A stretch of 23,079 nucleotides of DNA from Ruminococcus sp. UBA3767 (GTDB taxonomy: Bacteria; Bacillota; Clostridia; Oscillospirales; Ruminococcaceae), in NCBI GenBank assembly GCA_002371625.1, contig DFFV01000097.1, positions 1-23,079 on the forward strand, given 5' to 3'. Positions 1 to 8,020 of this stretch are shown in pieces; the stretch's first letter is position 1; each line of letters opens with the position of its first letter. The notes beneath the pieces are model-generated. The model saw only the letters and a program-made list of their open reading frames with translations, was not told the DNA's origin and ran no database searches. The position numbers and the translations under genes were made by a program.

Positions 1-83
1 TAGCTGACCCTTTCCACCTTCATTTCAGGTCTTGTAAAAAGAGCATAGTCTGCTTGAACAATTATTTTGAAACCATAGCCCAT
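1..83 (-). CDS. cas5c: Cas5 (type I-C, Cas5c/d), N-terminal fragment cut by the window edge
   Basis: Only the first 27 codons are present. The gene begins with ATG at 83-81 and runs off the left edge. The visible protein begins MGYGFKIIVQADYALFTRPE and continues MKVERVS; the stretch ALFTRPEMKVERVSY is a hallmark of the N-terminus of type I-C Cas5. In type I-C this protein is both a Cascade subunit and the endonuclease that cuts pre-crRNA below the repeat stem, leaving an 11-nt 5' handle. A strong ribosome binding site (AGAGAGGTGG on the minus strand, about 91-100) lies about 7 nt before the ATG. It follows cas3 in the usual I-C order (cas3-cas5-cas8-cas7-cas4-cas1-cas2), but a 253-bp gap with its own regulatory content separates them. 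This fragment was read directly from the sequence because it is very short. Confidence 0.88.
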   Translation of the reverse strand, partial: MGYGFKIIVQADYALFTRPEMKVERVS

Positions 84-113
84 TGTTTACCACCTCTCTT
101 TAAATCACAACTT

Positions 114-130
114 ACTTTAATTTTATTAAA
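114..130 (+). promoter_or_regulatory. Candidate Cascade operator: protospacer-like site in the cas5 promoter/leader
   Basis: Positions 114-130 read ACTTTAATTTTATTAAA. The spacer-like part of the neighbouring crRNA-like RNA begins ACTTTTATTTTGTTACA. Fourteen of 17 bases match, with differences at positions 6, 12 and 16. Positions 6 and 12 are flipped out and do not pair in type I crRNA-target duplexes. Beyond position 17 the match breaks down, so only the PAM-proximal part is paired. That pattern suits repression without cleavage. The three bases on the PAM side (111-113) are CTT, not the usual type I-C TTC, which is a real weakness. Confidence 0.6.
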
Positions 131-140
131 GCTTGTATAT

Positions 141-169
141 ATGATAATAGATTGTTACATAAAAATCAA
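141..169 (-). promoter_or_regulatory. Predicted sigma-A promoter of the cas5-led operon
   Basis: On the minus strand, -35 TTGATT (169-164) and -10 TATCAT (146-141) are separated by 17 nt. Transcription would start near 134 and give a leader of about 50 nt before the cas5 ATG at 83. The region at 114-130, just downstream of this -10, is matched by the spacer-like part of the adjacent crRNA-like RNA. A Cascade footprint of about 35 nt from 114 would cover the start site and the -10. Confidence 0.6.
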
Positions 170-221
170 TAGTCTTTTTTCACAAAAATCAGATTGTAAA
201 ATTATTCATATTTGCCAGCAC

Positions 222-250
222 TTGATTTGTTGTGCTGAATATGATATAAT
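222..250 (+). promoter_or_regulatory. Consensus promoter of the crRNA-like RNA
   Basis: On the plus strand, -35 TTGATT (222-227) and a perfect -10 TATAAT (245-250) are 17 nt apart. The predicted start at about 256-258 falls on the first base of the degenerate repeat. The promoter points away from cas5 and toward the 3' end of cas3, and no convincing plus-strand protein gene follows it. Confidence 0.7.
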
Positions 251-255
251 GAATT

Positions 256-338
256 GTCTGCGAAAGCAGTGAGTTGAAATACTTTTATTTTGTTACAAGG
301 TATACTGGGCGGTCATTACACGACCGCCCATCTTGTTT
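256..338 (+). ncRNA. Degenerate single-repeat mini-CRISPR: crRNA-like regulatory RNA (CreR/CreA-like)
   Basis: The unit contains three things. First, a repeat-like block at 256-280: GTC or a close equivalent, a perfect 4-bp stem CTGC/GCAG (258-261, 266-269) closed by a GAAA tetraloop, and the 11-nt tail TGAGTTGAAAT (270-280). That tail differs at only two positions from the TGGATTGAAAT handle common in type I-C repeats. Second, a spacer-like stretch from 281, beginning ACTTTTATTTTGTTACA. Third, a 9-bp hairpin at 306-330. It has its own consensus promoter, and the predicted 5' end coincides with the repeat start. CreR and CreA RNAs are known crRNA mimics that guide Cascade to promoters by partial pairing. 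The spacer part here matches the cas5 promoter region. No second repeat is visible, so 3' processing would rely on the hairpin. The real CRISPR repeat of this strain lies outside the window and could not be compared. Confidence 0.7.
306..338 (+). terminator. Hairpin ending the crRNA-like RNA, also abutting the cas3 3' end
   Basis: A 9-bp stem TGGGCGGTC/GACCGCCCA (306-314, 322-330) has a 7-nt loop. On the plus strand it is followed by the T-rich stretch TCTTGTTTAT; on the minus strand the following bases are not T-rich. It therefore works better as the terminator of the plus-strand small RNA than of cas3, though it sits 6 bp after the cas3 stop and may serve both. Confidence 0.55.
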
Positions 339-2535
339 ATCCAATGTAATCATTTATCCTGTTTATCATCAATCCTGTTTTGCAGCTGTAATCTTCTCTA
401 TCCGCCAGCACATACAAACCTTTGTACCGTTCCTCTAACCTGCCTGTTTCCAGCATAGGCACAAACTCATTGAAATATTTCAGTGCCACTGAATACCTTT
501 GCAGTTTACGCCGAACTATCCTGGGATCATCACAAAAGCTATCAAGAAGCTCATGAGTATCAGAGCAGTTGTCTATAACTACTGCCACCGTATCATCCTT
601 GATGAACTCAAAATGTTCGGCATATTTCCTGAATGCGATCTCGTTCATTCCACCGCCGCAATAGTATTCTGTGTCGGCAATTGAATTCTTATCTATTATG
701 CTTTTCCTGTTATAAAAAAGCCTGTTATAGTATTCTCTGATACATTCAGTCGATGATATATCCTCATATTCACTCAACAGATTTTCCGTTATCTCAGTCC
801 TTAAAGATAGTTCCCCATGTGATTTTTCATCTGTTTTGAAAATAAAAACATCCGCCTTTTCACGCCTTCCTTCACGGTTGCACCGTCCGCCTGACTGCAA
901 AATGCTGTCAAGCCCTGCAAGCTGCCTGAACACTGATTCAAAATCCAGATCAACACCCGCTTCTATAAGCGAGGTAGATACGACTGTCAGTTGAACACCG
1001 TTTTTCAGGTCAGCCCTTATACGTCCTATTGTCGCAGACCTGTCAGCAGGTGTCATGTAAGTAGATAGATGATATTTATTACCGCTCAGAAGTGAAAAGA
1101 TATCTCTTGCAGTCTTACGGCTGTTAACTACTATAAGTGAATTGTTGTACTCCAATGCTTTGCAAACTATGTACTCAATGTCCGTATCTCCCAAGTATGT
1201 ATAATCGCATTTTTTAAAAAATCTGTCATCACCTTTATCCGTAATAAGATTCCTGTAACTGCTGGTTGGCAGATACTCATCAAACAGCTTTGAATGATCG
1301 GGCATAGTTGCCGAAAGTAATATCGCTTTACTTCCAAGATACTTCGTGATATAACCGACGCCTCTTAAACAAGGCTGAAGGAGTTCCATCGGCAGAAGAT
1401 GCACCTCGTCAAAAACTATTACCGACTCCGCCATATTGTGCAGCTTGCGAAGTTTTGAGCCTTTATAATGGTACAGCGATTGAAAAAACTGAACGCTTGT
1501 TGTTATCACAAAAGGTGAATCCCAATTCTCACAGGCAAGCTGTAATTTCTTCTCTGTGCTATATTCTTCACCATTATCATCGTAATAATAATTTGAGTGG
1601 TGCTGCAAAATATCCGCATATTCTCCGAAAAGCCTGCCGAACTCATCAGCAGTCTGTTCGATTATGCTGGTATATGGTATAACGTAAATAATCCTCCTGA
1701 GCCTGCCGTCAGAACGTTTCAACATATCAAGTGCCGTTTTCAGACTGCACAGGGTTTTTCCGCTGCCTGTGGGCATATCAAGCAGATAGATATTATCATC
1801 TGTCGCACTGTTTCTCAAAGACTGTTCAAGGTATCTTCTACGGGCTTTTTGCAGTTCGGTATCTGAATTATCACTAAGTTTTTTAAGTTCATTATCTACA
1901 GAGTTTATTACACCATCTATATCAGCTTTCAATTCTCTGTCGGTCTTAGGCAGAAAAAATCTTTCAGTATCAATATAATCAGCGTCTGTCAGACAAGAGA
2001 ATAAATACCTTGTAAAGAACGCATATCGTTCCACTAATTCACGCATATCATCTTTTGCTATGCCTTCCATCAGCATACTGATAAGTGTATTCGGAGCCGG
2101 TGGTTCTATCTCTACCTCATTTTTATACGCAGAATAATCAGCACTGCCGGAATAAAACTTTGCTCGCTTTAGCCTCCCCTGCAATTCGGGGGAATTTTCA
2201 TCACTGCCACTTGAACCACCGTCCGCAAGCCCTGTATGATGCCCTGCTATGCAGTATTCCAACATTGGGATAATTATTTTCGTCATTCTGTCACAGTTTA
2301 GCTTTTCAAGCTCTATCGCCCCACAGACAGCGTGTTCAAATCGGATATTACTCCCTCTTATGCGTTTTTGAAAATCCTCGGCATACTTTCCGATATCATG
2401 GATCTTTCCGATAAACTCCGCATAAGGTTTAAATGCTTCCACCGCAAACATATACGCAAGCTCAGAAGTATTCTCCATGTGTTGATTTATACTCTGTTCA
2501 CGTCCATCCTCAGTCTTATGAGCTATATTTTCCAT
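337..2535 (-). CDS. cas3: CRISPR-associated nuclease-helicase Cas3 (type I-C)
   Basis: Cas3 is recruited by target-bound Cascade, where it nicks and degrades DNA with its HD domain while its superfamily 2 helicase unwinds it. With the ATG at 2535 the protein has 732 residues, normal for I-C Cas3. The HD domain fills the N-terminus: HD at 46-47 (GKIHDIGK), H68, HH at 99-100 (AGHHTG), and DAD near 184-186 (CLTDADY). Helicase motifs follow: Walker A MPTGSGKT (254-261), DEVH box (376-379), SAT (408-410), and the C-terminal motifs EAGVDLDF and QSGGRCNREGR (about 547-557). The open frame extends upstream to a TTG at 2574, but that codon overlaps the -10 of a consensus promoter. The ATG at 2535 follows a GGTGGTGG ribosome-binding-like stretch, and its sequence MENIAHKTEDGREQS fits Cas3 N-termini. 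All catalytic motifs are intact, so it is probably functional. Confidence 0.93.
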   Translation of the reverse strand: MENIAHKTEDGREQSINQHMENTSELAYMFAVEAFKPYAEFIGKIHDIGKYAEDFQKRIRGSNIRFEHAVCGAIELEKLNCDRMTKIIIPMLEYCIAGHHTGLADGGSSGSDENSPELQGRLKRAKFYSGSADYSAYKNEVEIEPPAPNTLISMLMEGIAKDDMRELVERYAFFTRYLFSCLTDADYIDTERFFLPKTDRELKADIDGVINSVDNELKKLSDNSDTELQKARRRYLEQSLRNSATDDNIYLLDMPTGSGKTLCSLKTALDMLKRSDGRLRRIIYVIPYTSIIEQTADEFGRLFGEYADILQHHSNYYYDDNGEEYSTEKKLQLACENWDSPFVITTSVQFFQSLYHYKGSKLRKLHNMAESVIVFDEVHLLPMELLQPCLRGVGYITKYLGSKAILLSATMPDHSKLFDEYLPTSSYRNLITDKGDDRFFKKCDYTYLGDTDIEYIVCKALEYNNSLIVVNSRKTARDIFSLLSGNKYHLSTYMTPADRSATIGRIRADLKNGVQLTVVSTSLIEAGVDLDFESVFRQLAGLDSILQSGGRCNREGRREKADVFIFKTDEKSHGELSLRTEITENLLSEYEDISSTECIREYYNRLFYNRKSIIDKNSIADTEYYCGGGMNEIAFRKYAEHFEFIKDDTVAVVIDNCSDTHELLDSFCDDPRIVRRKLQRYSVALKYFNEFVPMLETGRLEERYKGLYVLADREDYSCKTGLMINRINDYIG

Positions 2536-2573
2536 CTGTTGCCACCACCCACCAACGCTATTGATTTCATACA

Positions 2574-2602
2574 ATTATAGCACCGTTTGTCTAATTTGTC
2601 AA
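2574..2602 (-). promoter_or_regulatory. cas3 promoter, perfect consensus
   Basis: On the minus strand, -35 TTGACA (2602-2597) and -10 TATAAT (2579-2574) are 17 nt apart, a perfect sigma-A promoter. The start near 2567 gives a leader of about 30 nt before the ATG at 2535 and rules out the upstream TTG as start. cas3 is therefore transcribed independently of whatever regulates the cas5 promoter. Confidence 0.85.
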
Positions 2603-2845
2603 TACAGCACATTTATGTCCACTTTTGTAACATAAAAATTGTGCAATATCACAAAGTTTAATTATCTTATTACATTGAAGTAAAACGTGCACCACTTAAA
2701 TGGCACGGCTGATCCTATGCTCCCTGATCTTCAGACGTTTTATAATTCTTACGCTTGTTCCTATTACCATTTACTATTATAGCACACACGAAAAGATTTG
2801 AGGGGAATTTTTTTGGACAGTTGAAAAAATGCGCACATTCACAAC
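2603..2845. other. AT-rich intergenic stretch without a recognisable gene
   Basis: Between the cas3 promoter and the terminator-like hairpin of the next gene I see no coding sequence with a ribosome binding site. A TATAAT-like hexamer on the minus strand (2781-2776) has no matching -35. A 68-codon minus-strand frame overlapping the end of the neighbouring gene has no start signals. Confidence 0.5.
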
Positions 2846-2877
2846 AAAGCTCCCCTGCTTTTTTGCAAGGGAGCTTT
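2846..2877 (-). terminator. Terminator-like hairpin after the Big_2/CWB2 protein gene
   Basis: A 9-bp stem AAAGCTCCC/GGGAGCTTT (2846-2854, 2869-2877) encloses a T-rich loop just downstream of the stop at 2884. The run of T after the stem is weak. A near-identical hairpin sits after the EamA gene at 7010-7040. Confidence 0.6.
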
Positions 2878-2883
2878 TGAGTA

Positions 2884-5800
2884 TCAGTAAGAATTCTTAG
2901 CGATTTCCGCAGCGTACGCATCGGAAACTGCGCCTGTGCCGCCGAAAACTGTGATCTTATTCGGTTTTTTAGCTTTAAGGTATTTCAGCTGCGCAGCATT
3001 CAGATCCGGCTTTGCAGCCTTGCTGTTTATAAGGAACAGCGGAGCTTTATTTTTTGCTGCATAAACTCCGCCTGCGAGTGCATCGGGGAAATCCATTCCC
3101 GTTGCAGCGCAGATCATATCGCCCGTAAGAACGCTTGCGAACTTTTGATTGACCGCTGTGCAGGTAGCAAACCTGTCAGCGCCAAAAATGCGTACTGCGG
3201 ATTTTATTCCCAGTGCATTTGCTGCTTTGTTCATCATATCGTCCGAGATAACACCGTCTCCGCCGATCACATAAGCGTTTTTAACGCATTTTTTAGCCTT
3301 GAGCTCTTCAAGGTATGCTTTGGTGTCGCTGTCAAGCTCGCCATTTGTAGTAAGGTAGATTATCGGCGCTCCCTTAACGGCTGCAACGGTGCTTACCGAA
3401 AGCGCATCTGCGTAATTAAGACCGTATACGAAGAACACCTCGGTCGGCTTAGCTTTAAGCTGCTTTGCTATCGCAGTTGCTGTGCCAAAACGTGTATTTC
3501 CTGCTATGCGCTCGATGTTTTCTGCTTTTATGCCGTTATTTACAAGCGCAGCTACAACCTCTTTACCGATAGCACCCTCGCCGCCGAGAATTACAACTTT
3601 CTTTGCGCCAAGGCGTTTTATCTCGGCAAGAGTCGACTTGTCGATAGTTTTGGTATCTGTCAGCAATATCGGTGCTTTCAGCTTTTGAGCAAGCGGAACA
3701 CCTGCAAGCGCATCTGCGTAGTTCAAGCCGTAAGCGAGAACGACAGTACCTGTTCCGTCGGGATATGCTTTCTTTGAGATCTGCACAGCAGTATCGTATC
3801 TTCCCGCACCGGAAATGCGGACGAACGAATTTGCATAGCTGCGTGTTTCGGTCTTTTTGCAGACTGAACAGGTGCGGCTTTCGAGCCTTGTGCCCTTTGC
3901 AATATCAAAGCCTGCTCTTGCCCAGCTTCCCCATTTATGTGCAGTGAGCGCAATATCCTGAACGTCCTTCGTCTGAGTTTTGAACGCTGTATTCTTAAAC
4001 ACTGCCGTGTATGTGGTAGTGCCCTTGACTGCGCAGGTCGCAGCAGTTTTTACCTTGCTTGTAACGGTGACCTTTTCGGTCTGGGTATGCGACTTTTCAT
4101 TTTTGCAAACACGTTTTGCAGTGCAGGTCTTCATATCGCCTGACCATGTATAAGTCGGCGAGTTCCACGAATGGCCCTTTGCTTTGATAGTTTCGGTAAC
4201 CGTTTTTCCGCACACGCTGCAGGTCTTTGTGGTGCTTCCGTCTGTCGTGCAGGTCGCTGCAACGGACGATTTTACAACATAGTTGTGAGTATGCAGGTCT
4301 GTTACCTCAAACGGCTGTACAGCATAGAATTTAGGTGCGCCCGAGGCAGTAGCATACCACCTGATGCAGCCGTCTGAACACATTATCGGCTGGCAGTCGG
4401 AAAGCCTTGCTTTAAGGCTGCCCACAGCAGAGCACTTATTTCCCATACCGTCAACGAGCTGCATTTTCACGGTATATTTATTGGAAGCATCCTTTTCCTC
4501 CCACATCACTGCAAACAGATAATCTGATACTTTTACAATATGCGGTGTGCCTGCACGCACATTTGAAGATGCAGTAAACCCGGTCAGCTTTACCTGGCTT
4601 GTTTTATTGAACAGTTTATCCGTAACGCTCAGGTAAACATCTCTCACGGCAGATGAGGTATTCAGGTCCTTGACATAGCCGATCAGGCAGCTCTCCTTTG
4701 AAAGCTCAGCGCCGCCCAGAGCTATGCCTGTATAGTTTGATGTGCCGTTGGTTTCAAGCGGGACAGTGACCGCAACATTTGTAAGGCTGTCGCCGTTTTT
4801 CATTCGTGTGATAGTAATTCCCTGCGTTGAAAGCGGACGGTTGTTCATATACATCTTGCTGCCTTCTGCGTGGTCAACACGGTATACATACTTGCCGTCA
4901 TTCAGAACGAACTGGTCAAACGAATGGCTGACATAACCCGATGTGAGATTATCGACGCTGTACTGAGAATCGGTAATTTTCATTGTTGCCTTATCAAGAA
5001 TATAGGTCATGTTCGCCTGGTGATTCAGCCCGTCGCTGTCGGCGTACATTGTGTGACAGGTGTGGATATATATCTTTCCGCCGATCTCGGTAAATCTGCA
5101 CGAGCCTGCATCAAACGGAGTAAATGTATTTGCGCCCTTTACGCTGACATGGTCTTTCTTTTTCCAGTCCTTTGTATAGCGTGTTACTCTCAGCACCTCG
5201 GCAGAATCGCTGTATGAAGCATTTTTCTGCCCCGTGACAACGTAGTTGTAATCGGTGCTGAAATACACACCTCCGAAAAGCGAAAGCTCGGGAGTGACAG
5301 TGTAGCTTTTGAGAAGTGAGGCTGCACCTGCCGAATATTTTTCAGCGATAATTTTACCGCCGATATACTCGGCACGCCATATATTCTTCGAGGAGTCCTC
5401 GCAGATATAGGAATTATTCACCTTTGACCACACGGTATAGTCATTGCGTGAAGCGTTTGTGCTTGAAGCGCCCTTGGAGTCTACCTCGGTCACGGGCGAA
5501 ACAAGTGCGCTGTTATCGGTAACGGTGAGCTTTTTAGTCGCTTTCAGCCCTGTGCTTGTGGAAACGGTGATAGTTACCGTTCCCTTGCCTGTTGCGTAGA
5601 GCTTTCCGTCCTGAGAAACTGTTGCGACCTTTGTATCACTGCTTGACCAGCTAAAGCCCTCATTCAGTCCGCCGTTTGACTTTGGTGTCAGTTTGAGAGT
5701 TTTGCCGACTGCGACAGATGATGCGGACGAGGTTATGCTCAGCGTTGTTGAACGTTTCCAGTTGATAGTTTCAAGATAGTAATCACCGTTATCGTCAAGC

Positions 5801-6894
5801 TCTATCGCAAAGACATTGCTGCCCGCTTTACTAAGGGAAAAGACGTGGTTCTTAGTTGTGTAGGAAACGTTCTGTGCACCTTTTTTATCAAACTCGGTGA
5901 TATTGTTTGCGCCTGTATAGATAATAAATGAATCGCTATCGCTGTTATACAGCGTTCTTATTCCGCAGCTGTAATTATCCTTGCCCGACTTATCGCTTTC
6001 AAGCTCGCTTCTTGCAACGCCTAAAATATAAGGCGCACTTGATGCGGTAAGGTCAAAGGTATTTGAGTCGATGAACCCGACCTTGCTGGACATGAAGCGG
6101 CAGGAATATGCAAGGTACTTTCCGCCGATAAGCTCGCAGCCATTGTTGTGGTCATAAAAGTATTTCTGGAAAAGCGAGTCGATAGCTTTTGAAGTAAAGG
6201 TGAGCTTATTGTTTTTTACGTTTGCTGCAAACACCGAGTTGGTGTCGTGGTCGTAGCCCCAGTAAATGTAGTTGAAGTAGCCCTCAAAATAGAGATTGCC
6301 GCTTGTTTCGTCATATCCTGCAAAGCGGTAGACCCTGTTACTGCCCGTTTCCACCTCGCTGAGCTTAGTTCCCGAGGAATTGAGAAGATATATCTTTGAA
6401 GAATCAGCAAGGAAAATATTACCCTTGGTATCGGCTGCGACTGCATTTGCGCTTATTGCAACATCAAGCGTTTTCAGCAGCTTTTTGCTGTCAAGGTCAA
6501 ACGTGAACACCCTGTAAACATAGCCCTTTGAGCTTTCGTAATGATTACCCAGAAGATACAGCTTGCTGCCGCAGAGGTATGAATTTGTGATACTATCGCT
6601 GCTGCTTTTCTTGAAATCATAGACCTGCGAAACTGCGCCTGCCGATGTGATAAAGAACAGCTTTGAATCGTTGACGGTATAAACGCCGTTGTTTTTATCA
6701 TTGCCGTAAACTGCAAAACCGTAATTGGTTGCGCTGAACGAAGAAAAAGCACTTTTATCCAGCTTGACAGCCGTTGCAGCCTGTGCGGTGATAGATGCAG
6801 GAGCGATATTCGTGAATGCGCCTTGCGGAAGTGCACAGGCACAGCTGAACAGCATAGCCAGCGAAGCCGCTGCTGCGACGAGTTTTTTTCTCAT
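2884..6894 (-). CDS. Secreted cell-wall-bound protein with Big_2 domain, Cys-rich module and three CWB2 repeats
   Basis: This 1336-residue protein is exported and probably held on the wall by its C-terminus. It begins with a signal peptide (MRKKLVAAAASLAMLFSCAC). Residues about 45-380 and 465-860 are rich in short beta-strand patterns, plausibly propeller-like, with no enzyme motif I recognise. A bacterial Ig-like Big_2 domain lies at about 384-460 (SWSSSDTKVATVSQDGKLYA). Residues about 868-1020 form a Cys-rich module (HSWNSPTYTW, paired CxxC such as CSVCGK and CSVCKK) found in many clostridial surface proteins. Three CWB2 repeats end the protein (about 1024, 1128 and 1233 to the end; RISGAGRYDTAVQIS, VILGGEGAIG, VFGGTGAVSD). 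CWB2 repeats are known to bind cell-wall polymers non-covalently in clostridia. The ATG at 6894 follows GGGAGG. The C-terminal half is a paralogue of the CAP protein encoded at 10099-14244. The function of the N-terminal part is unknown. Confidence 0.85.
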   Translation of the reverse strand: MRKKLVAAAASLAMLFSCACALPQGAFTNIAPASITAQAATAVKLDKSAFSSFSATNYGFAVYGNDKNNGVYTVNDSKLFFITSAGAVSQVYDFKKSSSDSITNSYLCGSKLYLLGNHYESSKGYVYRVFTFDLDSKKLLKTLDVAISANAVAADTKGNIFLADSSKIYLLNSSGTKLSEVETGSNRVYRFAGYDETSGNLYFEGYFNYIYWGYDHDTNSVFAANVKNNKLTFTSKAIDSLFQKYFYDHNNGCELIGGKYLAYSCRFMSSKVGFIDSNTFDLTASSAPYILGVARSELESDKSGKDNYSCGIRTLYNSDSDSFIIYTGANNITEFDKKGAQNVSYTTKNHVFSLSKAGSNVFAIELDDNGDYYLETINWKRSTTLSITSSASSVAVGKTLKLTPKSNGGLNEGFSWSSSDTKVATVSQDGKLYATGKGTVTITVSTSTGLKATKKLTVTDNSALVSPVTEVDSKGASSTNASRNDYTVWSKVNNSYICEDSSKNIWRAEYIGGKIIAEKYSAGAASLLKSYTVTPELSLFGGVYFSTDYNYVVTGQKNASYSDSAEVLRVTRYTKDWKKKDHVSVKGANTFTPFDAGSCRFTEIGGKIYIHTCHTMYADSDGLNHQANMTYILDKATMKITDSQYSVDNLTSGYVSHSFDQFVLNDGKYVYRVDHAEGSKMYMNNRPLSTQGITITRMKNGDSLTNVAVTVPLETNGTSNYTGIALGGAELSKESCLIGYVKDLNTSSAVRDVYLSVTDKLFNKTSQVKLTGFTASSNVRAGTPHIVKVSDYLFAVMWEEKDASNKYTVKMQLVDGMGNKCSAVGSLKARLSDCQPIMCSDGCIRWYATASGAPKFYAVQPFEVTDLHTHNYVVKSSVAATCTTDGSTTKTCSVCGKTVTETIKAKGHSWNSPTYTWSGDMKTCTAKRVCKNEKSHTQTEKVTVTSKVKTAATCAVKGTTTYTAVFKNTAFKTQTKDVQDIALTAHKWGSWARAGFDIAKGTRLESRTCSVCKKTETRSYANSFVRISGAGRYDTAVQISKKAYPDGTGTVVLAYGLNYADALAGVPLAQKLKAPILLTDTKTIDKSTLAEIKRLGAKKVVILGGEGAIGKEVVAALVNNGIKAENIERIAGNTRFGTATAIAKQLKAKPTEVFFVYGLNYADALSVSTVAAVKGAPIIYLTTNGELDSDTKAYLEELKAKKCVKNAYVIGGDGVISDDMMNKAANALGIKSAVRIFGADRFATCTAVNQKFASVLTGDMICAATGMDFPDALAGGVYAAKNKAPLFLINSKAAKPDLNAAQLKYLKAKKPNKITVFGGTGAVSDAYAAEIAKNSY

Positions 6895-6929
6895 TATGCG
6901 GACCTCCCATAAATAAATACTTCACATAA

Positions 6930-6938
6930 ATTATACCA
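6930..6938 (-). promoter_or_regulatory. Extended -10 promoter of the Big_2/CWB2 gene
   Basis: On the minus strand, TGGTATAAT (6938-6930) is an extended -10. The hexamer 17 nt upstream, TGGAGC, is a poor -35. The start would be near 6923, about 30 nt before the ATG. Confidence 0.5.
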
Positions 6939-7009
6939 CACAAATACAACTTGCTCCATACCAAAAACGCCGAAATTTCGCTTTTTCATATATATACTTT
7001 GCACAAAGC

Positions 7010-7040
7010 AAAGCTCCCCTGCTTTTTGCAAGGGAGCTTT
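7010..7040 (-). terminator. Terminator-like hairpin after the EamA gene
   Basis: The stem AAAGCTCCC/GGGAGCTTT (7010-7018, 7032-7040) lies directly after the stop of the transporter gene. It repeats the hairpin at 2846-2877 with one T fewer in the loop. There is no clear T run after it. Confidence 0.6.
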
Positions 7041-7046
7041 AAACTA

Positions 7047-7988
7047 TCAATCAGAAGAAACGCTGCTTTTATCGGTATTGACAACGATTATGCCTGCGGT
7101 TATAAGCACAAGCGCTGCGGCGTGCTTCAAGCCGAGCTGCTGAGCTTCGCCGAGCAAAAGCGCCGAGAGGATGACGCCGATAACGGGGTTCATAAAGCCA
7201 AACACCGAGATCTTTGAGACATCGCTGCTTTTGAGCAGTATTCCCCAGAGGGTGTAGGCAACGCTTGAAACAAGGGCAAGGTAAATAAGTATCGCAGCTG
7301 CCTTGCCTGCCTGCATCTCACCGTCAGCGCTCTCGCCCGAAAGCATTATGCCAAGCTGTCCGATAAGCGTCATCACCACGCCGCCGAACATAAACTGATA
7401 GCCGCTGAAAAGCACTGTATCATGCTTTGACGAGAATGATTTTATCATCACCGAGGATACGCCGTAGCAAAGTGCGGAAAGAGCCACAAGCCCGTCCCCG
7501 AGAGGTCTGAACGAGAAGCCTGCGGAGGTGATGTTTATTATCACCACTCCGAGTAGTCCCAGCAGGCAGCCGAGTATTTTGCGTGAGGTCAGCTTTTCCA
7601 TTTTGACAAAAATGCTTGCGATGATTATTGCAAAAAAAGCTGTGAGCGAATCGACTACCGCCGAGTTCACGCCTGTTGTATGAGCAAGCCCGACATAGAA
7701 AAACACATACTGCCCTATCGTCTGAAAGAGGCTGAGCAGCATTATTTTTTTACACTCCGTTTTTTGGGGCACAGGCAGCTTTCGCCGCAGGGCTGCCGCA
7801 AAAGCTATCACCAGCACGCCTGCGAGAAAAAACCTTATCCCTGCAAAGCGTATCATCTGCCAGGTATCGCTTGAGGAAATGCCCCAGTAATCGTAGCCCA
7901 GCTTTATCCCGGGGAAAGCACTTCCCCACAAAAAACAGCACACGAACGCACCAAGAAAGATCAGTGCGTTTTTCTTTACCGCTGTCAT
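7047..7988 (-). CDS. EamA-family (drug/metabolite transporter superfamily) membrane transporter
   Basis: This 313-residue protein has about ten predicted membrane helices arranged as two EamA repeats, the usual size and layout for DMT-superfamily exporters. The first repeat shows the typical start FLWGSAFPGIKLG and a central VDSLTAFFAIIIASIF with the helix-ending LLGLLGVVII. The second repeats the pattern with LVSSVAYTLWGILL and FMNPVIGVILSALLLGE. Members export amino acids, metabolites or drugs; the substrate cannot be read from the sequence. The open frame reaches a TTG at 8009, but the ATG at 7988 follows GGAAGTG at about 7 nt and is preferred. It is a monocistronic unit with its own promoter (8049-8021), separated from the upstream diguanylate cyclase gene by a strong terminator. 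Confidence 0.9.
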   Translation of the reverse strand: MTAVKKNALIFLGAFVCCFLWGSAFPGIKLGYDYWGISSSDTWQMIRFAGIRFFLAGVLVIAFAAALRRKLPVPQKTECKKIMLLSLFQTIGQYVFFYVGLAHTTGVNSAVVDSLTAFFAIIIASIFVKMEKLTSRKILGCLLGLLGVVIINITSAGFSFRPLGDGLVALSALCYGVSSVMIKSFSSKHDTVLFSGYQFMFGGVVMTLIGQLGIMLSGESADGEMQAGKAAAILIYLALVSSVAYTLWGILLKSSDVSKISVFGFMNPVIGVILSALLLGEAQQLGLKHAAALVLITAGIIVVNTDKSSVSSD

Positions 7989-8020
7989 ATCATCACTTCC
8001 ATAAAACAAATAACGCTTCT

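Follow-up and report, generated by a model that had tools for sequence, protein, structure and literature searches.

The closest described counterparts of the element reported here are the cas-regulating RNAs termed CreR (Liu et al. 2023 Cell Host Microbe 31:1481, as cited in PMC12737573 and PMC13131331), which, in the parts of PMC13131331 available to us, are named for types I-B, I-E and V-A. Our element resembles them in that it is a crRNA-like RNA tied to cas genes and is complementary, to a limited extent, to the promoter region of its cognate operon, and Cascade-dependent repression is the outcome expected from this likeness, in our case as a prediction from sequence. It differs from them in belonging to type I-C, in its predicted processing by Cas5c, and in having one repeat, a guide of about 25 nt and a 3' end set by an intrinsic terminator. 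CreA, the RNA of the CreTA toxin–antitoxin modules of type I-B, for which one-repeat creA genes have been described, likewise combines degenerate repeats, one or two in number, with partial complementarity to a promoter and represents a natural reprogramming of Cascade into a repressor; CreA, however, targets a toxin gene, whereas our element targets a cas operon (PMC9458426, as far as its accessible parts go). The phage-encoded anti-CRISPR RNAs (Racrs) are also solitary repeat mimics, but they sit in viral genomes, whereas our element lies in a host cas locus and carries a guide that matches a cas upstream region (PMC10651486, accessible parts). The literature searched, including the available parts of PMC12737573, PMC13131331, PMC12948488, PMC9458426 and PMC10989794, reports no type I-C CreR, and the supplement of the primary CreR paper may list one. 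We consider it very probable that the element is a type I-C CreR, i.e. a guide RNA that steers Cascade to its own cas5 operon in an autorepressing loop.

A single-repeat element between cas3 and cas5

The DNA examined, in the following termed the window, is a stretch of 23,079 nt (contig C94) whose 5' edge falls within the cas5 gene of a type I-C operon. The remainder of cas5, cas8c, cas7, cas4, cas1, cas2 and the CRISPR array are found in that order on contig C117 of the same genome, and the cas genes are consecutive on locus L023. The order cas3-cas5c-cas8c-cas7-cas4-cas1-cas2, the lack of cas6 in the operon and profile matches, over cut-off for Cas8c (TIGR01863), Cas7 (TIGR02589) and Cas1c (TIGR03640) and with the sister Cas5 assigned to TIGR01876 (Cas5c), identify the host system as type I-C. 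To our knowledge, type I-C lacks Cas6, and the predicted processing enzyme is therefore Cas5c. Both flanking genes, which an earlier sequence-only reading had taken to be cas3 and cas5, are indeed these, cas3 by TIGR01587 and TIGR01596 and cas5 by its identity to the sister Cas5c; they lie on the minus strand and are separated by 253 nt. The features of the locus are as follows.

3..83, minus strand: 5' end of cas5 (type I-C Cas5c), first 27 codons, 85% identical to the sister Cas5c and continuing on C117
111..113, plus strand: CTT at the PAM position of the target, directly preceding 114–130
114..130, plus strand: target (protospacer) ACTTTAATTTTATTAAA in the cas5-operon leader, mismatched at guide positions 6, 12 and 16
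141..169, minus strand: predicted promoter of the cas5 operon, TTGATT (169–164)-17-TATCAT (146–141), 9/12 to consensus
222..250, plus strand: predicted promoter of the small RNA, TTGATT-17-TATAAT with a TG before the -10 element
256..280, plus strand: single degenerate CRISPR repeat, GTC-TGC-GAAA-GCAG-TGAGTTGAAAT
258–269, plus strand: stem of this repeat within the 256–280 block, CTGC (258–261)-GAAA-GCAG (266–269)
270–280, plus strand: 11-nt handle TGAGTTGAAAT, 3' of the stem
281..305, plus strand: guide (spacer-like) ACTTTTATTTTGTTACA, 25 nt up to the 3' hairpin, with the target match in positions 1–17
306–330, plus strand: predicted intrinsic terminator hairpin TGGGCGGTC-ATTACAC-GACCGCCCA, with a T-rich tail to 340, in the place of a second repeat
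337..2574, minus strand: cas3 open reading frame (TIGR01587 and TIGR01596), with TTG as the listed start
2574–2602, minus strand: cas3 promoter, a perfect TTGACA-17-TATAAT with TG, 12/12

The listed cas3 start at 2574 overlaps the cas3 promoter, so that the true start is probably an ATG near 2535. Farther upstream of cas3, a protein of 1336 amino acids with CWB2 (cell-wall-binding) and Big_2 domains is encoded on the minus strand (2884–6894). At gathering scores, Rfam had no match in the window.

The anatomy of the element can be read directly from these features, and the promoter, the repeat-like block with its stem–loop and 11-nt tail, the spacer-like stretch and the terminator hairpin that the sequence-only reading had pointed out are all present. 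The promoter at 222–250 matches the consensus at 10 of 12 positions; among the 23 promoter-like sites in positions 1–8000 (mean of 13.1 sites in shuffled sequence), it is one of two with 10 matches and is surpassed only by the cas3 promoter with its 12. The RNA from 257 to 338 folds with z = -3.85, and none of 200 dinucleotide shuffles folds as well. The real array on C117 consists of 22 intact GTCACCCCCTGCGTGGGGGTGTGAGTTGAAAT repeats and 21 spacers of 33–37 nt, and comparison of the block at 256–280 with this repeat bears out the proposed kinship, since the two share not only the 5' GTC but also the 3' 12 nt (GTGAGTTGAAAT) and the placement of the stem relative to the handle. The handle of type I-C is 11 nt long, and both hairpins, that of the block and that of the real repeat, leave the identical 11-nt tail TGAGTTGAAAT.

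Thus, a repeat-like element with the cognate handle stands beside cas genes. It is not an ordinary CRISPR array, which in this genome lies on C117: the window contains one exact handle, the element has no second repeat and has its own predicted promoter, its stem is 4 bp in a 25-nt repeat as against 7 bp in the 32-nt repeat of the array, and the stretch that had been called spacer-like falls short of every one of the 21 real spacers. Five further GTGAGTTGAAA sites occur in the genome (C33:2498, C58:2942, C79:30258, C93:9521 and C109:9238; a reversed-pattern control gave none), but at these, considered as possible pointers to other regulated genes, no stem or promoter-like context was apparent by eye. 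A separate observation concerns the leader-proximal spacer of the array (L023:2156–2189 on C117, minus strand), which when reversed reads as a consensus promoter, TTGACA-17-TATAAT with TG; it matches the cas3 promoter of the window at 22 of 34 positions, other sites in the window reach 24, 23 and 22, and the match at the cas3 promoter is preceded by ATA, not CTT.

The match of the guide to the cas5 leader

Type I Cascade flips out the bases at guide positions 6 and 12. Our match score counts guide positions 1–17 without these two, giving a maximum of 15, and the guide of the window reaches 14 in the leader of the cas5 operon, including all ten unflipped positions among the first 11. This target lies 31–47 nt upstream of the cas5 start codon and just downstream of the transcription start predicted from the promoter at 141–169. 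On both strands of the 23-kb window, nothing but the guide's own sequence fits the guide better, and the runner-up scores 12. Chance scores are pushed up by the AT-richness of the target regions (null mean 9.95 of 15). When the cas5 upstream region was dinucleotide-shuffled 5000 times, 3 of the shuffles reached 14. The window guide also scores 14 in a single one of 110 foreign cas upstream regions, and this hit is the guide of the element in the sister locus L025 itself.

A possible additional target in the promoter region of cas3 was considered and rejected, as its best score of 11/15 is at chance level; aligning the guide by hand to the sequence upstream of cas3 (at 2620 and 2642) gave nothing better than chance either. 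In the window, the cas5 operon thus appears to be the only target, and cas3, which has its own promoter, is not detectable as one.

From the match as such, the guide might activate cas5 or merely sense Cascade, e.g. by excluding a repressor, instead of repressing the operon, and the targets in the relatives L115, L037, L043 and L116, which are over 100 nt away from the gene start, could be seen in this light. The targets in the window and in its sisters, however, are at the predicted start site or in the leader, i.e. at the classic place for a roadblock, and the known CreRs, as described in the available parts of PMC12737573 and PMC13131331, repress; activation or mere sensing is therefore improbable. 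The anatomy of one or two degenerate repeats with partial promoter complementarity is also that of a CreA-type antitoxin RNA (PMC9458426, accessible parts), which would restrain a nearby toxin gene, creT, and so make the CRISPR locus addictive. Yet the guide matches the cas5 leader rather than the promoter of an adjacent toxin gene, and the targets in relatives precede either cas5 or cas3; nor did any toxin gene catch the eye beside the element. Because the match is to a region before a cas gene, we assign the element to the CreR rather than the CreA branch and regard an antitoxin role as very unlikely.

Occurrence and covariation in relatives

Relatives were collected by Cas5-based searches, which gave 138 loci with a Cas5 match—a scan of genome contigs by Cas5 alignment contributed the best 80 of 566—and 126 loci were kept after dropping identical or too-short upstream regions; a Cas3-based scan of genome contigs found no relatives. 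A loose scan of the 620 nt upstream of cas5 gave 44 handles, 17 of which score at least 12. Fifteen of these 17 lie on the strand opposite cas5 (L047 and L048 being those on the cas5 strand), and 14 of the 15 are in cas3–cas5 gaps of at least 218 nt, the gap of L079 having been measured at 94. Where the gap is at least 200 nt (28 loci), half of the loci (14) carry an element opposite cas5 with a score of at least 12. An element on the cas3 side that matches the upstream region there was found in 10 of the 70 loci looked at; cas3 and cas5 abut in all ten (gaps of 10–50 nt), out of 52 abutting loci in which that side was looked at. With 14/28 wide-gap and 10/52 abutting loci carrying one, the element is common among type I-C loci yet far from universal. 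The layout of promoter, stem and handle, which the sequence-only reading had proposed to look for in related I-C loci, recurs there but is missing from some, including close relatives: L054/L084, L026/L085 and L086 have no element on the cas5 or cas3 side, and L056 has none on the cas5 side, which was the side scanned. L088 has no handle in its 337-nt gap. An exact TATAAT within 50 nt upstream of the repeat is present in 11 of 13 cas5-side elements and in only 2 of 10 cas3-side ones.

Where elements do occur, both stem and guide vary. In the sister locus L025 (Cas5 87% identical), the stem is CTAC-AATA-GTAG, with one pair changed on both sides, and guide position 5 is changed from T to A with a corresponding change in the target. 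L027 carries a quite different guide, ATATTCGTATTCGGTAC, which fits its own leader, GTATTAGTATTAGGTAC, with mismatches at positions 1, 6 and 12. Guides also vary within a group at paired positions, each fitting its own region; position 4, for instance, is T in L095, A in L094 and G in L091. L074 has a repeat with an 8-bp stem and the handle GGATTGAAAT between cas3 and cas5; its best target score is 11, and its target may be elsewhere than near cas5. Other repeat-like blocks were noted along the way. On the minus strand of L048, 73 nt into the scanned region, such a block has an 8-bp stem, the handle GGAATAGAAA and a borderline target (12/15, mismatches at 6, 12 and 18, GTC in front). Solitary repeat-like handles with short stems also occur upstream of cas5, on the cas5 strand, in L141, L131, L151, L138 and L158 (hosts Oleiagrimonas, Halomonas, a Rhodobacterales MAG, Lysobacter and Desulfonema, respectively), and no target for these five was found in the 300 nt scanned (scores 8–10).

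For a statistical treatment, a strict handle rule that was blind to targets was applied to 111 cas upstream regions, where it returned 32 handles, and for every guide, scores were obtained both in the region it came from and in about 110 foreign regions. Twenty-three of the 32 (13 on the cas5 side, 10 on the cas3 side) score at least 12 in their own region, and 21 of these 23 pass a control in which at most two foreign regions were allowed to be as good and at most one in fact was. L043 (score 12; 3/110 foreign regions as good) and L116 (12; 9/110) were left out of the positionwise count, and L079 (15) and L040 (14), found only by the looser handle pattern or region rule, stand outside the strict count. 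The nine strict handles below 12 are those of L060 (minus strand), L074, L125, L141 and L131, three repeats of the real array in L154 and the second repeat of L094.

Across the 21 elements, unflipped positions within 1–17 match in 302 of 315 cases, a number that is partly inflated by the choice of the best site; free of that inflation, and equal to chance, are the matches at the flipped positions 6, 12 and 18 (15/63) and at positions 19–30 (57/252). With a mask on multiples of six, 10 of 23 elements match fully at the scored positions, as against none of 920 null comparisons; each of the five other mask phases gives 0/23 (null 0/920 for four phases and 2/920 for one), and without a mask no element (0/23) is fully matched. 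As elements within a group are related, the 21 represent fewer than 21 independent origins. Taken across the relatives, these alignments indicate that guides and targets change together.

The bases in front of the target were not used in choosing sites and can thus be read independently. In the 21 elements, these three bases are CTT in 11, CTC in 7, TTC in 2 and TTT in 1, and CTT or CTC precedes the site in 18 of 21 elements as against 101 of 2309 null best sites. The PAM itself was read from overlapping spacers, of which the 1606 array spacers in the fetched loci provided seven usable overlaps. The five perfect ones, all in GTGAGTTGAAA arrays (L093 and L096), read CTT without exception, two of them being both sides of one L096 pair; a poor overlap (14/16) in the GTGAGTTGAAA array of L090 reads AAA, and an imperfect one (18/20) in the GGATAGAAA array of L141 reads TTC. 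Because sister arrays with the same repeat tail read CTT in their perfect overlaps, the CTT before the target in the window is very likely the working PAM of the system, i.e. the target lies beside a PAM recognized by arrays of its own kind. The I-C PAM is likely to be clade-specific, with CTT for GTGAGTTGAAA-type arrays versus TTC for the GGATAGAAA array; elements beside distant I-C operons (n = 6) have TTC in five cases and TTT in one. Direct searches for protospacers gave no reading: viral-contig scans with the 20-nt cores of 8 of the 21 array spacers found none (L170 and L171 match little past the core), megablast of six arrays (L023, L113, L095, L123, L096 and L093) against phages found nothing, and array spacers had no clean protospacer outside arrays in the fetched loci.

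A purely cis-acting role, with the hairpin at 306–330 ending cas3 transcription and the block serving as a Cas5 site in an antisense transcript that tunes cas3/cas5 mRNA, would suit the position of the hairpin directly after the cas3 stop codon (337) and the antisense orientation of the RNA to the cas3–cas5 spacer; it is nevertheless highly improbable, as it is the plus strand that bears the T-rich tail, with no T run on the minus-strand side, and as a PAM and flipped bases are the marks of a Cascade protospacer match, which an antisense mechanism would not lead one to expect. That the element is a stray, functionless repeat left from a decayed array is hardly credible, for although the repeat is solitary and degenerate and some close relatives have no element, decay would not preserve a consensus promoter, a two-sided stem change, an exact handle and a terminator, nor would it produce, across many species, a guide that covaries at its unflipped positions with the region upstream of the cas gene; this covariation and the six-base pattern are strong arguments against decay.

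The idea of a crRNA mimic of the CreR or CreA kind in a type I-C system, put forward by the sequence-only reading, is therefore supported by the handle and stem shared with the real repeat and by recurrence in relatives. In addition, it acquires a candidate target, the leader of the cas5 operon, together with a six-base periodicity of the match, a PAM in line with the clade and the covariation of guide and target.

Proposed mode of action and origin of the 3' end

These observations suggest how a type I-C CreR may operate. Transcription would begin near 256, as predicted from the promoter at 222–250, and Cas5c would cut at the base of the short stem, on its 3' side, to expose the handle at 270–280, as the identity to the real repeat implies; the 3' end would be fixed by the terminator hairpin, making a second cut unnecessary. 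The RNA would then compete with array crRNAs for Cascade, as reviews describe it for known CreRs. The resulting complex is expected to read the CTT at 111–113, to pair with the strand opposite 114–130 near the predicted cas5 start and to act as a roadblock to the cas5 operon; it is in this sense that we infer repression by the element. Plentiful Cascade would thus shut its own operon, which would open again when Cascade is occupied by array crRNAs or by anti-CRISPRs.

Because pairing would end some 17 nt into a guide of no more than about 25 nt, the R-loop would be too short for cutting by Cas3 or for priming, and it is presumably this shortness that allows safe self-targeting at a good PAM. 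Across relatives, guides seem to be held at 15 paired bases within 17 positions, which would be enough to bind but insufficient to license Cas3, and the length from guide start to hairpin is 22–30 nt in 17 of the 19 elements with a hairpin (none was found in four). In the type I-B system of Haloarcula, 21–24-bp spacers repress strongly with interference and priming lost, although the same group once saw very weak priming when a 24-bp spacer was directed at a virus (PMC10989794, accessible parts).

The 3' ends of the elements can be ordered into a series from repeat to terminator, the direction of which we infer. L094 has two intact repeats. In L091, L093, L095 and L096, the hairpin of the second repeat is kept and the handle TGAGTTGAAA is replaced by TGAGTTTTAT or TGAGTTTTTA, a change by which the second repeat would become a terminator. 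In the window and in the sister locus L025, a different hairpin with a T-rich tail stands in this place, that of the window being an unrelated terminator. The architecture of one repeat followed by a hairpin, which the sequence-only reading had thought might be distinct, is thus real and recurs, but one-repeat creA genes are already described in the available parts of PMC9458426.

More generally, and with reasonable though lesser confidence than for the window itself, we propose that, in Clostridia from gut and rumen, type I-C systems have a dedicated, co-evolving autorepressor, whose guide spans about three Cascade segments, whose second repeat has turned into a terminator and which tracks the promoter that drives the Cascade genes, following whichever of the cas3 and cas5 promoters does so. 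If so, RNA-guided autorepression of cas genes would extend to type I-C, a widespread subtype that lacks Cas6. Sequence by itself would then reveal how selection arrives at a guide for binding but not for cutting—three segments with 15 pairs in all, the flipped bases left free and the PAM of the system kept. The pairs of guides and targets would also constitute a comparative dataset on the R-loop length needed before Cas3 acts, and the change from repeat to terminator would be a simple route from a piece of a CRISPR array to a stand-alone regulatory RNA gene. For the gut bacteria that carry it, the element is a candidate sensor of both crRNA load and anti-CRISPRs.
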